A stretch of DNA of 64,000 bases. It comes from Pectobacterium zantedeschiae (GTDB lineage: Bacteria; Pseudomonadota; Gammaproteobacteria; Enterobacterales; Enterobacteriaceae). The translations under genes were made by a program, and so were the position numbers. This document shows, one piece after another, positions 20,976 through 38,838 of this stretch (the stretch's first letter is position 1; each line of letters begins with the position of its first letter). The notes under the pieces are model-generated. The model was given only the letters and a program-made list of their open reading frames with translations. It had not been told where the DNA came from and did not search any database. Location: positions 2,035,229 through 2,099,228 of the forward strand of contig NZ_NWTM01000001.1 of NCBI RefSeq assembly GCF_004137795.1, given 5' to 3'.

Positions 20976-21995
20976 ATGAACGTTCTCGTCACAGGTGGTA
21001 GCGGTTACATAGGAAGTCATACGTGCGTACAATTACTGGCTGCCGGGCACACCCCCGTCATTCTCGATAATTTGTGCAACAGCAAGGCTAGCGTCGTTAA
21101 AACCATTACACGTTTAACCGATAAAACGCCCATTTTTTATCAGGGAGATATCCGCGACAGCGCACTGTTGGACGATATTTTCGCTAAACACACCATTGAT
21201 TCCGTCATCCACTTTGCTGGCTTAAAAGCCGTGGGTGAGTCGGTGCGTGAGCCACTGAGCTACTATGACAATAACGTCTACGGCACGCTCGTGCTGGTTG
21301 AAGCAATGAAGAAAGCTGGCGTGAAGAACCTGATATTTAGCTCTTCCGCCACCGTCTATGGCGATCAACCACACACGCCTTATCAGGAAAGTTTTCCAAC
21401 AGGACACCCTGCCAGTCCTTATGGCCGCAGCAAGCTGATGGTTGAGCAGATCCTGCAAGACTTACAGCATGCAGAGCCGGAATGGAGCATTACGCTATTA
21501 CGTTATTTCAACCCGGTTGGTGCACATCCATCTGGTGAGATGGGCGAAGATCCACAAGGTGTTCCCAATAACCTGATGCCTTATATCGCTCAGGTTGCTG
21601 TAGGGCGTCGCGACTCGCTGGCCATTTTCGGTAATGACTACCCAACCGTTGACGGCACTGGCGTACGTGACTACATCCACGTTGTCGATCTGGCTGATGG
21701 CCACATCGCCGCTATGAACACACTGCAAAATCGTGCTGGCGTACACATTTATAACTTGGGTGCAGGTGTAGGCTACAGTGTATTACAGGTCGTCGAGGCT
21801 TTTAGTCAGGCTTGTGGTAAACCAGTCGCTCACCATTTTTCCCCACGTCGTCAGGGTGATCTGCCTGCTTATTGGGCGGATGCAGGACGTGCAGCAAAAG
21901 ATCTTAACTGGCGGGTCACCCGCTCATTGCAAGAAATGGCGCAGGACACCTGGCGCTGGCAATCCACCCATCCTAATGGGTACGAAGAGGCGTAA
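20976..21995 (+). CDS. galE: UDP-glucose 4-epimerase
   Basis: Interconverts UDP-galactose and UDP-glucose, needed for galactose use and for envelope sugars. The ATG at 20976 is preceded by AGGGG and gives 339 residues (338 in E. coli); the frame opens at 20940. The NAD-binding motif GGSGYIGSH begins at residue 7, and the catalytic YGRSK (Y149/K153 type) is present. In E. coli galE heads galETKM; here galM follows directly with no galT or galK. Confidence 0.97.
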   Translation: MNVLVTGGSGYIGSHTCVQLLAAGHTPVILDNLCNSKASVVKTITRLTDKTPIFYQGDIRDSALLDDIFAKHTIDSVIHFAGLKAVGESVREPLSYYDNNVYGTLVLVEAMKKAGVKNLIFSSSATVYGDQPHTPYQESFPTGHPASPYGRSKLMVEQILQDLQHAEPEWSITLLRYFNPVGAHPSGEMGEDPQGVPNNLMPYIAQVAVGRRDSLAIFGNDYPTVDGTGVRDYIHVVDLADGHIAAMNTLQNRAGVHIYNLGAGVGYSVLQVVEAFSQACGKPVAHHFSPRRQGDLPAYWADAGRAAKDLNWRVTRSLQEMAQDTWRWQSTHPNGYEEA

Positions 21996-35906: not shown

Positions 35907-36623
35907 TTAGGCGAAGAATCGATGCCAGTACAAAGAGATAGGGATAACCAGAACCAAAGCAGGCAGGAAGTTAACTACCGCAAATGATTTGATCTGCGCG
36001 ATTCTCAGCCCTACCGCAATCATGATAATTCCGCCACAGGCAGAAAAATCACCCATCGTGACCTCTGTCATAAAGGGCATAATCAATTTGGCGGAGAAGA
36101 ATAACAAGATCTGGACAATCATCTGCGGTATCGCAATCGACATTACAGCAAGGCCAAGCGTGATGGAGAAAATCAGCGCGGTGAAAATATCCAAAGCAGA
36201 TTTAATAATCAGCAGTTGATAATCACCCGTTAACCCTTCCGTCAACGCCCCAACTACACCAGTGCCGCTGGCACAAAACAGAACGATTAGCGCGGTAAAG
36301 TTCTGAGTGTAGACATCCTGCGGTAGGCGATGCTCCTGCGCAGGCAGAACGCGGTTTAATCCTTTCTGAATCATCGTACCAGCCCACTGCACGCCGGACT
36401 CCATACGTAGCAGTTCACCTAACGCCACGCCAATCACGATAGCCAGCGCCACTGCAGGGAGTTGCTGGACTTTAACAACCAGCGTGACCCCCATGGCAAT
36501 CGACACCATCGCAAATGCAGGAGGCAAACCATCCTGCAAACGCTGAGGAATAAAGCGACGTAAAGCAATGCCCAGACCGCTACCAATCAAGATGGCGGCA
36601 CCATTAATCAACGGACCAATCAT
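35907..36623 (-). CDS. DUF554 membrane protein, YqgA-like
   Basis: A 238-residue inner-membrane protein with about seven hydrophobic helices. It begins MIGPLINGAAILIGSGLG after an AGGAAGAT ribosome site; the eight-codon extension is not needed. The family is widespread, with E. coli YqgA as nearest relative. Function is unknown. Its stop converges with the yjaA-like gene 15 bases away. Confidence 0.82.
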   Translation of the reverse strand: MIGPLINGAAILIGSGLGIALRRFIPQRLQDGLPPAFAMVSIAMGVTLVVKVQQLPAVALAIVIGVALGELLRMESGVQWAGTMIQKGLNRVLPAQEHRLPQDVYTQNFTALIVLFCASGTGVVGALTEGLTGDYQLLIIKSALDIFTALIFSITLGLAVMSIAIPQMIVQILLFFSAKLIMPFMTEVTMGDFSACGGIIMIAVGLRIAQIKSFAVVNFLPALVLVIPISLYWHRFFA

Positions 36624-36857
36624 ATATCTTCCTAAACAGGGCGACACACGCTTCCCTGTGGCAATGACTTCCCTGCTTGATAGGATTAGGAAACAGTTCC
36701 TGACGGGTTATGTAGTCCATGCAGAGGGGTGAAACCCTACTATACTCCAAAGCTTTAACGAGCTGGGAATGATAATAGGTTTTATCTCATCGAGACGACA
36801 CGTGCTGCATAGACTAAAATGAATTTATTCAAAGGAGGAGATTTACTGCTGAAGCGG
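36624..36857. other. Intergenic region before the tRNA-Lys relics
   Basis: 234 bases between the DUF554 start and the first tRNA relic. It should include the DUF554 promoter on the minus strand and the downstream flank of the tRNA-Lys unit. A short hairpin GGGGTGAAACCC-like stem is at about 36726-36737. No gene is visible, and an open frame starting at 36819 only crosses the tRNA relics. Confidence 0.5.
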
Positions 36858-36946
36858 TGGTGGGTCGTGCAGGATGACTCAGCCTTCGGGGTCAACGTTG
36901 ACGCGCTTCGCTCGGCTCGAACCTGCGACCAATTGATTGAAAGTCA
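36858..36946 (-). pseudogene. tRNA-Lys relic 1, split by a 41-bp insert in the T loop
   Basis: From the CCA end (36858) it reads as the tRNA-Lys acceptor and T arm up to GGAT, then has 41 foreign bases (36876-36916), then resumes at TCGAACCTGCGACC and continues through the anticodon arm with one change (ATTGAAAG for ATTAAAAG). It stops at 36946; the D arm and 5' acceptor strand are missing. The insert contains a perfect palindrome GTCAACGTTGAC. Confidence 0.85.
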
Positions 36947-37003
36947 CGATGTTCATTGCGTAGAAACGCAGATAGTATTATCAGGAATTGAACTGCTAGA
37001 AGA

Positions 37004-37116
37004 TGGTGGGTCGTGCAGGATGACTCAGCCTTCGGCTTCGCCCCTTCGGGGTCAACGCTGGCGCGTTGCTGTCTCGCTTCGCTCGGCTCGAACCTGCGAC
37101 CAATTGATTGAAAGTC
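37004..37116 (-). pseudogene. tRNA-Lys relic 2, split by a 66-bp insert in the T loop
   Basis: The same break points as relic 1, but the insert is 66 bases (37022-37087). It carries three mini-hairpins: AGCC-TTC-GGCT, CCCC-TTC-GGGG and CAACGC-TGGC-GCGTTG. The tRNA part ends at 37116 and is followed by about 58 bases almost identical to those after relic 1, so the pair arose by duplication. Confidence 0.85.
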
Positions 37117-37174
37117 ACGATGTTCATTGCATAGAAACGCAGATAGTATTATCAGGAATTGAACTGCTAGAAGA

Positions 37175-37250
37175 TGGTGGGTCGTGCAGGATTCGAACCT
37201 GCGACCAATTGATTAAAAGTCAACTGCTCTACCGACTGAGCTAACGACCC
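37175..37250 (-). tRNA. tRNA-Lys (UUU), copy 1
   Basis: 76 bases with encoded CCA. Acceptor GGGTCGT/ACGACCC, anticodon loop CTTTTAA (anticodon TTT), and regular D and T arms. It lies in the position of the Lys/Val tRNA cluster between cpoB and nadA of E. coli, though no valine tRNA is present. Confidence 0.97.
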
Positions 37251-37290
37251 GCAATGCGGAACTACTGCTTACTAACATTCTTCTTGAAAT

Positions 37291-37366
37291 TGGTGGGTCG
37301 TGCAGGATTCGAACCTGCGACCAATTGATTAAAAGTCAACTGCTCTACCGACTGAGCTAACGACCC
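37291..37366 (-). tRNA. tRNA-Lys (UUU), copy 2
   Basis: Identical in sequence to copy 1 over all 76 bases including CCA; anticodon TTT. Separated from it by 40 bases, so both are likely processed from one transcript, this copy first. Confidence 0.97.
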
Positions 37367-37491
37367 AATTTCATGCTGCTTTAGCGTTTCGCTGTTTGCC
37401 TTGGCAACGGCGGCACATATTACTGATTTAAATTTTCAGCGCAACCTATTTTCTTAAAAAACTGTTTGATTGCTTACTCTTAAGACGTTTA

Positions 37492-37528
37492 GGCACAAAA
37501 ACCGCTCATGATGCGCAATTTTTGTGCC
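37492..37528. repeat. Inverted repeat between tRNA-Lys and cpoB
   Basis: GGCACAAAAA (37492-37501) and TTTTTGTGCC (37519-37528), perfect 10-bp arms with a 17-base loop, 15 bases past the cpoB stop. It may be the terminator of the tol-pal-cpoB transcript, or it may simply separate it from the tRNA promoter. Confidence 0.5.
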
Positions 37529-37542
37529 AATTAATACTGGTA

Positions 37543-38319
37543 TTACGATCCCGCTAAACGCTTTTGCGCCTGCTTTGCACTTTCCGTATTGGGGTACATT
37601 TTTACAACTTGCTGGTAAACGGCCTTGGCTTTATCAGCCTGACCTTTTTCCTGCATGATCACCCCAACCTTCAGCAAGGCTTCGGAACTTTTTGGTGACT
37701 TGGGATAATTTTTAACAACGTTGGCGAAATAGTACGCCGCATCGTCCTTTTTCCCCTTGTTGTAATTCAACTGACCAAGCCAATAGTTAGCGTTAGGTTG
37801 ATACGTTGAATCAGGGTACTTCTTGACGAATGCCTGAAATGCGCTGATCGCCTGATCGTACTGTTTTTTCTCCAATACGAGTGCGACTGCAGCATTGTAA
37901 TCAGTATTCGCATCACCCGTACTGGCCGGTGCCGCCGTATTGGCGGCACCGGTATCAGTACCCGCAGCAGCGGCAGGTGTGCCGTCTGTTGTCGGTGTAG
38001 AAGATGATTGCGAACTTAATCCATCAATCTGCTGATAGATCTGCTTCTGCCGTTCAACAATCTGATTCAACTGATACTGACTTTCCTGAATCTGCCCACG
38101 GAGGCTGTCCATATCACGTTGATTATCAGAGATCTGCTGCTGAAGTTGGGTTAAAAGCTGACTGTGAGCGTTAGAAATACGCTCCAATTGAGTGACGCGG
38201 TCTTCGACCGAGCCTGAGCCGACATTACTGATTGGCGCTTGGGCAGTAGCGGCCCAAGGGACCGCTACGCCAACCAGTAACGACAGACCCAACAGGTGAC
38301 GTCTGAAGTTACTGCTCAT
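37543..38319 (-). CDS. cpoB: Cell division coordinator CpoB (YbgF)
   Basis: Periplasmic protein that links peptidoglycan synthesis to Tol-driven outer-membrane constriction. 258 residues. A signal peptide ends near ATAQ (residue 27). A coiled-coil region (about residues 38-100, Gln/Leu heptads) forms the trimer. A Ser/Thr/Ala-rich linker leads to three C-terminal TPR repeats (DYNAAVALVLEKKQYDQAI onward). It starts nine bases after pal, the conserved end of the tol operon. Confidence 0.95.
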   Translation of the reverse strand: MSSNFRRHLLGLSLLVGVAVPWAATAQAPISNVGSGSVEDRVTQLERISNAHSQLLTQLQQQISDNQRDMDSLRGQIQESQYQLNQIVERQKQIYQQIDGLSSQSSSTPTTDGTPAAAAGTDTGAANTAAPASTGDANTDYNAAVALVLEKKQYDQAISAFQAFVKKYPDSTYQPNANYWLGQLNYNKGKKDDAAYYFANVVKNYPKSPKSSEALLKVGVIMQEKGQADKAKAVYQQVVKMYPNTESAKQAQKRLAGS

Positions 38320-38328
38320 GCGATTCTC

Positions 38329-38838
38329 TTAATATACCAGAACGGCACGACGGTTTTTGGCATATGCCGCTTCGTCATGACCGAGAACAGCTGGTTTCTC
38401 TTTACCGTAAGAAACGATAGAGATCTGATCGGAAGAAACGCCTTTACCCTGCAGGTACATTTGTACCGCGTTGGCACGACGCTCACCCAGAGCGATGTTG
38501 TATTCTGGCGTGCCGCGTTCGTCCGCATGACCTTCGATAGTCACTTTGTAAGACGGGTTGCTACGCAGGAATGCAGCGTGTGCGTCCAGCATCTGAGCGA
38601 ATTCAGAGCTCACATCGTACTTGTCCAGACCGAAGTAAACGATGTTGTTGCGCTGTAATTCTTGCATCTGCAAACGAGCTTGCTCAGAAGAAGACATGTT
38701 GCCGCCGTCCATCATGCCGTTGTTACCAGCACCCATGGAAGATTGGTCATTGTCCGCATTCTTGTTGGAGCTACAAGCGGCCACTGCCAGTACCGGCAGA
38801 GCCAACATCAGGCCTTTCAGCACTTTATTGAATTGCAT
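38329..38838 (-). CDS. pal: Peptidoglycan-associated lipoprotein Pal
   Basis: Outer-membrane lipoprotein that grips peptidoglycan and binds TolB. 169 residues; the lipobox LAVAAC gives lipidated C22. A flexible Gly/Met/Asn-rich linker is followed by an OmpA-like domain with the peptidoglycan-binding segment [20 protein letters not shown]. It lies 40 bases after tolB. Confidence 0.97.

Follow-up and report, generated by a model that had tools for sequence, protein, structure and literature searches.

Directly behind a pair of tRNA-Lys genes in Pectobacterium zantedeschiae stand two tandem units whose sequence places them in a known class, the tRNA-linked repeats (TLRs; RtT in Rfam). We read the array as a tRNA-Lys operon whose two TLRs would be released from its trailer, whose hairpin chains would derive from a cassette and whose chimeric units would have arisen by recombination; to this joint reading we give a probability of about 0.72. 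The evidence consists of the anatomy of the units, their family, ends that match the upstream tRNA, covarying hairpins, variable unit numbers and the kinship of the hairpin chain, each demonstrated below. Two of the observations go beyond the known class: the chimeric form of the units, and the relation of their chain to a cassette found in ERIC elements.

All parts of the array lie on the minus strand of the 64-kb stretch of DNA analysed here (the window). A sequence-only reading had described two intact tRNA-Lys(UUU) genes beside two interrupted copies, and ARAGORN confirms the genes, at 37291..37366 (array position 1) and 37175..37250 (array position 2), both with 79.2 bits for the Rfam tRNA model. 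TLR unit 1 (37004..37174, 171 nt) adjoins the second gene directly, position 37174 lying next to the tRNA end at 37175, and unit 2 (36858..37003, 146 nt, with a shortened hairpin chain) follows in tandem with no gap. Each unit opens with a 57-nt spacer (37118..37174 in unit 1, where it differs between species; 36947..37003 in unit 2), continues with a 30-nt tRNA-Lys-like segment (37088..37117 and 36917..36946) that covers most of the anticodon arm, the variable region and the 5' half of the T arm, then enters the hairpin chain (66 nt at 37022..37087 and 41 nt at 36876..36916) and closes with an 18-nt copy of the tRNA-Lys 3' end (37004..37021 and 36858..36875), that is, the 3' half of the T arm, the acceptor strand and CCA. 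Both units finish in ATCCTGCACGACCCACCA, the same as the two intact tRNA-Lys genes. A further incomplete repeat, a spacer with a remnant of the usual 5' part, begins behind unit 2 (36778..36857, limits approximate), as judged by eye from its likeness to unit starts and array ends in relatives.

The inserts of 41 and 66 bases do interrupt both copies at the identical point of the T loop, with exactly these lengths and the same flanks, GCAGGAT before and TCGAACCTGCG after on the plus strand, and the mini-hairpins named for them are all present in the sequence. Next to the chain of unit 1, that of unit 2 has two losses, one of them between direct repeats CCGAAGG (read from the alignment). Beyond the insert the two units differ at a single one of 87 bases each, the 30 tRNA-Lys-like bases plus the 57 of the spacer; the near-identity of about 58 bases reported earlier is borne out, but these bases are the 5' part of the unit, not its downstream part, the tRNA genes being on the minus strand. 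The D arm is missing, as had been said, but the units also retain tRNA-Lys sequence from the anticodon arm (most of it) through the variable region into the T arm (its 5' half), and this 30-base segment is 29/30 identical to the intact tRNA-Lys genes. ARAGORN finds no tRNA in 36858-37174, where the D arm and the acceptor 5' strand are absent and the T loop is split. Neither a promoter-like site nor a minus-strand terminator-like site was found in 36400-37700. The array is flanked by what we take to be a cpoB-like gene on one side and a membrane-protein open reading frame on the other; Rfam places the CpoB/ybgF thermometer at the cpoB-like gene (RF02782, 153.5 bits, 38290-38428, minus strand), and cpoB also precedes a tRNA-Lys/Val cluster in an E. 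coli strain. An antisense open frame of 141 aa crosses the array (36819-37244, plus strand) and is most likely mechanical.

Set against the RtT model RF00391, with its cut-off of 45 bits, unit 1 scores 68.6 bits (E 1.5e-12) and unit 2 27 bits (E 0.03) in a 4-kb search, a similarity that exceeds chance in unit 1 and is weak in unit 2. A profile built from TLR chains of other genera matches, across the 64-kb window, the two units only, the chain of unit 1 at E 1.4e-8 and unit 2 at E 0.0027. The same genome holds two RtT units after tRNA-Tyr, and Rfam searches return RtT matches in 86/149 genomes of the family and in 85/394 genomes of the order, from 34 of its 114 genera. In 51 of 55 loci picked by Rfam score from the family and order searches (L036-L065 and L138-L162), the last 16 nt of the unit equal the tRNA immediately upstream with at most 3 changes, that tRNA being Tyr, Pro, Lys or Ser; the remaining four (L142, L144, L156, L159) are truncated or diverged. 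Unit lengths cluster at about 165-180 nt across many genera, and RefSeq annotates an "RtT sRNA" behind tRNA-Lys in an E. coli strain.

These features agree with the class as presented in the portions of PMC8144298 that treat it, where an identity of 18-19 bp with the tRNA 3' end is the hallmark of TLRs and E. coli K-12 has 22 of them at ten loci; the same portions date their first description to 1978 and describe them as still without a known function. With the E. coli TLRs, including the rttR/RtT RNA (RF00391; rttR is 171 nt long), the window units share the place behind a tRNA gene, the unit length, the tandem copies, the repeat of the tRNA's final 18 nt and the chain that splits the T arm. 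They differ from them in lacking an inverted copy of the T arm, in whose place 30 nt of tRNA-Lys stand, and in the shortened chain of unit 2. Of the origins offered by the sequence-only reading, a duplicated array with a new role, such as a tRNA-derived RNA, comes closest in kind, the units being RtT-family TLRs, a known sort of trailer in tRNA operons, with any new role being conjectural. The YrlA model (a Y RNA-like RNA with a tRNA-like domain; RF02553) overlaps the array across the two intact tRNA genes with 41.7 bits, below its cut-off of 69, and the tRNA sequence itself is the most likely source of that match. Three loci of the class deserve mention in their own right: a tRNA-Tyr operon with at least 6 TLR units at 167-nt spacing (L145; genome G396, contig 5), a unit behind tRNA-Ser(GGA), a tRNA type seen beside a unit at no other examined locus (L160; G191), and a stretch behind lysV of E. 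coli K-12 (L238, about 21403-21469) that the profile recognises as a TLR chain and for which the K-12 feature table holds no RNA feature.

In most relatives the unit runs in a fixed order: an inverted T-arm copy, the 5' half of the T arm, the hairpin chain, the 3' half of the T arm, the acceptor strand and CCA. The inverted copy, which is absent from both window units, is the anatomy of most relatives and no part of the published TLR hallmark; one E. coli strain shows 13 nt of it copied without a change (GATTCGAACCTGC, L107). Since it varies with the type of tRNA, the closing stem that it forms remains paired. Counted by script over the 81 units of 107 that could be parsed, at least three of the four extra pairs of this stem (G-T allowed) are present in 32/32 units behind Tyr, 32/36 behind Lys and 8/13 behind Pro.

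The hairpins also covary. In an alignment of 33 of 58 listed units, whose shared ancestry inflates the counts, 96.6% of the cells of the first hairpin and two chain hairpins are paired and both sides have changed in 8/17 pairs. None of 500 shuffles scored as high on four of the five measures, while 182/500 did so for further pair types; versions of the hairpins slid along the sequence reach at most 43% pairing. Overall folding is a different matter. The minimum free energies of the window units are no better than those of shuffled sequences (z -0.13 and +0.14), and a stable global RNA fold was dropped as support on these z-scores near zero; part of unit 1 folded as single-stranded DNA gives z -1.43. 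A whole-unit consensus from RNAalifold was poor because MAFFT had displaced the closing stem in part of the rows, and the model built on it was discarded.

The window units are chimeric, with 30 nt of tRNA-Lys where most relatives have the inverted T-arm copy, and we observed this variant in one genus only. In the genus we examined 19 loci of the type seen in the window (L108-L122 and L128-L131, counted by reading and drawn from 25 genomes, the other six being outside the count), and 14 of them carry the variant, intact, truncated or decayed. Three show nothing but the usual form, namely L121, a decayed L128 and L130, where a second chain is present; the remaining two are L129, a truncated core, and L131, with no complete unit. 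A second locus type, Val-Lys, has the usual form at 10/10 fetched loci (L123-L127, L133-L137). An exact-pattern search for the chimeric junction through 149 genomes of the family, one per genus, where one mismatch would hide a copy, met it in none of the 148 other genera; the search returned 13 places in 6 genomes, namely the two window units and 11 ordinary tRNA-Lys genes of five other genomes. Several relatives carry an extra usual unit between the two tRNA-Lys genes, which the window and some others lack, as would be expected from recombination between repeated 3' ends. Identity among the 14 chimeric units is 93% in the tRNA-like part, 89% in the chain, 97% in the 18-nt 3' end and 70% in the spacer, a pattern that fits exchange with neighbouring tRNA genes, or constraint. 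The term "relics" finds no support in units whose ends are kept in this way. Most simply, the chimera would have formed by recombination with the neighbouring tRNA-Lys gene at the shared GGTTCGA; a cassette inserted directly in a tRNA copy whose D arm was lost later would look alike.

The hairpin chain itself leads out of the tRNA operons. When the unit was searched against its own genome, all five of the inspected non-tRNA places were ERIC elements with inserts. These inserts measure about 70 bp and recur with the edges GA|CAAA...CGARTA, which were set partly by the search pattern, the BLAST limits being independent of it; two chance coding matches were dropped among 20 cassette patterns. At one site the ERIC homology ends at base 28 (GCAGGA) and continues there past the insert CAAAACG...GAATA, two more insert sites lie near bases 45 and 86, and of the 44 genomic ERIC matches listed for an approximate ERIC query, 30 or more are continuous. 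Inserts of about 70 bp in ERIC (also IRU or RU-1) were reportedly described by Wilson and Sharp in 2006. With these, the window chains share the order of hairpins and a related sequence; in contrast to them, the window units have no ERIC ends and sit in a tRNA operon. A 127-base ERIC query against the own genome, with E up to 1e-5, gave no match at the units (C3:2072086-2072402). Two E. coli ERIC copies hold a similar insert. Several ERIC copies among those fetched (L163-L192) contain two or more chain inserts at different sites (L164, L167, L168, L188), and some own-genome copies are down to fragments around one hairpin (L189, L192).

Profiles link the two sets in both directions, with E-values that refer to small search sets. 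The profile built from 50 TLR chains of other genera matches 23 distinct places among 60 own-genome loci that a cassette or ERIC search had supplied, and 22 of these places lie in or beside ERIC; singly, most of the scores are weak (E 0.005 to 0.8). Conversely, when 18 ERIC cassettes were made into a profile and run against 40 TLR loci of other genera, it matched 37 places with E up to 1, of which 33 fall in called units; it reaches 20/40 loci, with a best E of 1.5e-11. Reversed sequences, used as controls, gave no match for either profile. Across the window, the ERIC-cassette profile scores best on unit 1, at its chain (E 0.0097), and does not pick up unit 2; four other places follow at E 0.48 to 0.99. 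The tyrT units of K-12 are barely within its reach (E 0.34 to 0.53). Over 100 kb of E. coli K-12, the TLR profile finds only the lysV unit (E 3.4e-7) and a stretch of rrnB after the 5S gene (E 1.6e-4), and the ERIC-cassette profile finds a single weak place (E 0.38) besides rrnB (E 0.0015). The kinship of ERIC cassette and TLR chain rests on the whole set and on the best matches, and on these the hairpin chain appears related by sequence both to the ERIC cassette and to the stretch after E. coli 5S rRNA. The latter belongs to RrA/RrB/RrF, rrn-linked TLRs whose chain is related by profile at rrnB and which differ in their linkage to rRNA and, according to PMC8144298, in repeating the end of 5S.

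We did not find the link between TLRs and ERIC inserts in our searches of the open-licence literature; older papers may state it. A link of rtT to dispersed repeats is already in print: according to PMC2965389, the rtT transcript has a counterpart in a cluster of repeats classed among the BIMEs that is similar to it, and given this likeness the kinship of the chain may extend beyond ERIC. BIME/REP sequences differ in that neither profile picked any of the 45 REP-like cores (identified by an approximate motif) in the 100 kb of K-12.

A filled and an empty site bear on how the chain may have spread. At L137, the last unit is incomplete, and its inverted T-arm copy holds a chain of 74 bp in the loop (GTGAGA|CAAAATC...GCGAATA|ACC). 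The same place is empty at L124, in another species (GTGAGA|ACC), and the right flanks differ at 4/79 bases. A nearly identical 74-bp chain occupies the matching place at L130, in a unit at the other locus type, and both filled copies stand behind the last tRNA-Lys. Insertion is the simplest reading of the L137/L124 pair, with precise deletion or exchange between TLR copies as the alternatives. A small palindromic element that targets T loops, as suggested earlier, is partly recovered here: the chain is cassette-like with recurring edges, but T loops are not its sole site, related cassettes lying also in ERIC elements and in the inverted T-arm copies of the units at L130 and L137. We tentatively envision that TLRs, the RNAs behind E. 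coli 5S and the ERIC inserts share one dispersed cassette, which would insert, or be copied as hairpin DNA, into palindromes at GA|A sites. We rate this proposal higher because the clean 74-bp filled/empty pair was confirmed, and hold it at somewhat short of even odds. tRNA T loops would be natural targets of such a cassette because the T arm is itself a near-palindrome.

To explain the array as a whole, we propose that the units are transcribed together with the tRNAs in one precursor. Since an exact copy of the tRNA 3' end closes each unit, the tRNA end-trimming enzymes would free the two as individual RNAs, about 171 and 146 nt long and with CCA at the 3' end. Our working guess is that the released units are processed trailer RNA with no essential role. 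TLRs would have originated when a duplicated tRNA 3' end acquired a cassette in its T loop; the units would then have multiplied by unequal recombination between the repeated 3' ends.

A rival that deserves weighing, though we consider it unlikely, holds that the DNA is what matters: hairpins in single-stranded DNA would maintain and correct the palindromes, the cassette would copy itself as DNA, and the RNA would be incidental. The loops of the chain speak to this. d(cGNAg) and d(cGNNAg) are unusually stable DNA loops, while GNRA is the form favoured in RNA. With two groups summed, triloops are GNA in 133/176 cases, 130 of these closed by C-G, and tetraloops are GNNA in 42/60, all closed by C-G, only 8 of these 42 being GNRA; mononucleotide shuffles give 11% of G...A loops. 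These figures come from 88 chains; a count over 90 chains, the set used with the shuffles, differs slightly as the chain start was parsed differently; duplicates were collapsed, and we left out a chance unit (L135, 142 nt, from the loop counts), three units with N, one far match and, in the 90-chain count, two chains with no recognisable T-arm start. The bias does not resemble what selection for RNA GNRA loops would leave and agrees with the rules for DNA loops, and the presence of related cassettes in non-tRNA DNA (ERIC) is in line with it. The argument is weakened by the relatedness of the sequences, which are not independent, and by the small tetraloop numbers outside the genus (GNNA 16/29, GNRA 4/16). 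Moreover, G-A closing helps RNA loops too, and the loops of ERIC cassettes, compared by eye, differ in sequence from those of TLR chains.

Somewhat less likely still, in our estimate, is that the units are regulatory small RNAs, for instance a sponge or a binder of Hfq or CsrA, whose hairpins and ends are kept by selection. Hairpin covariation would suit such a role; in addition, the parts of PMC8144298 and PMC4986893 that deal with these RNAs report that RrA/RrB/RrF bind Hfq and CsrA in vitro and that RtT-family RNAs give Northern signals in Actinobacillus pleuropneumoniae. Against it, sections of PMC8144298 rate the 19 TLRs of E. coli tRNA operons at <0.01 as CsrA binders and relate that the starvation role claimed early, and first, for TLRs was later retracted. 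The numbers of units and hairpins also vary among close relatives, down to L131, which has no complete unit.

Far less credible is a reading as decaying tRNA pseudogenes with chance insertions and no family behind them. In its favour, 30 nt of tRNA-Lys are retained 5' of the insert and no tRNA can form, and truncation or decay has affected a number of the copies within the genus (L111, L112, L116, L119, L122, L128, L129). Yet the same anatomy recurs family-wide after Tyr, Pro, Lys and Ser tRNAs, which speaks against this as the main account, as do the covarying hairpins and the identity of the 3' end and the tRNA-like part (97% and 93%) relative to the spacer (70%). Relatives of the insert are widespread, where the sequence-only reading had named a unique insert and gradual random decay as the outcome that would overturn it, and random decay of tRNA copies was rejected on family recurrence, covariation and the identity pattern. 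We give equally little credence to the units as duplicated attachment sites that serve or record the integration of mobile elements: tRNA 3' ends are common integration sites and each unit repeats one, but the adjoining open reading frames are presumably a CpoB-like and a membrane protein, and unit lengths cluster near 165-180 nt in many genera.

Our reading of the array as a tRNA-Lys operon with two cassette-derived TLRs has a practical side for annotation, where such units can be marked as RtT/TLR rather than as tRNA pseudogenes. The chimeras in the window suggest that TLRs and their tRNA genes exchange sequence. The link to ERIC inserts offers a concrete hypothesis for the origin of TLRs, with cassette-bearing and cassette-free sites in one genome, and it merits a proper phylogenetic test. 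If the one-cassette proposal is true, TLRs would be cassettes caught in duplicated tRNA ends, and the question of the TLRs would become that of a minimal mobile palindrome.
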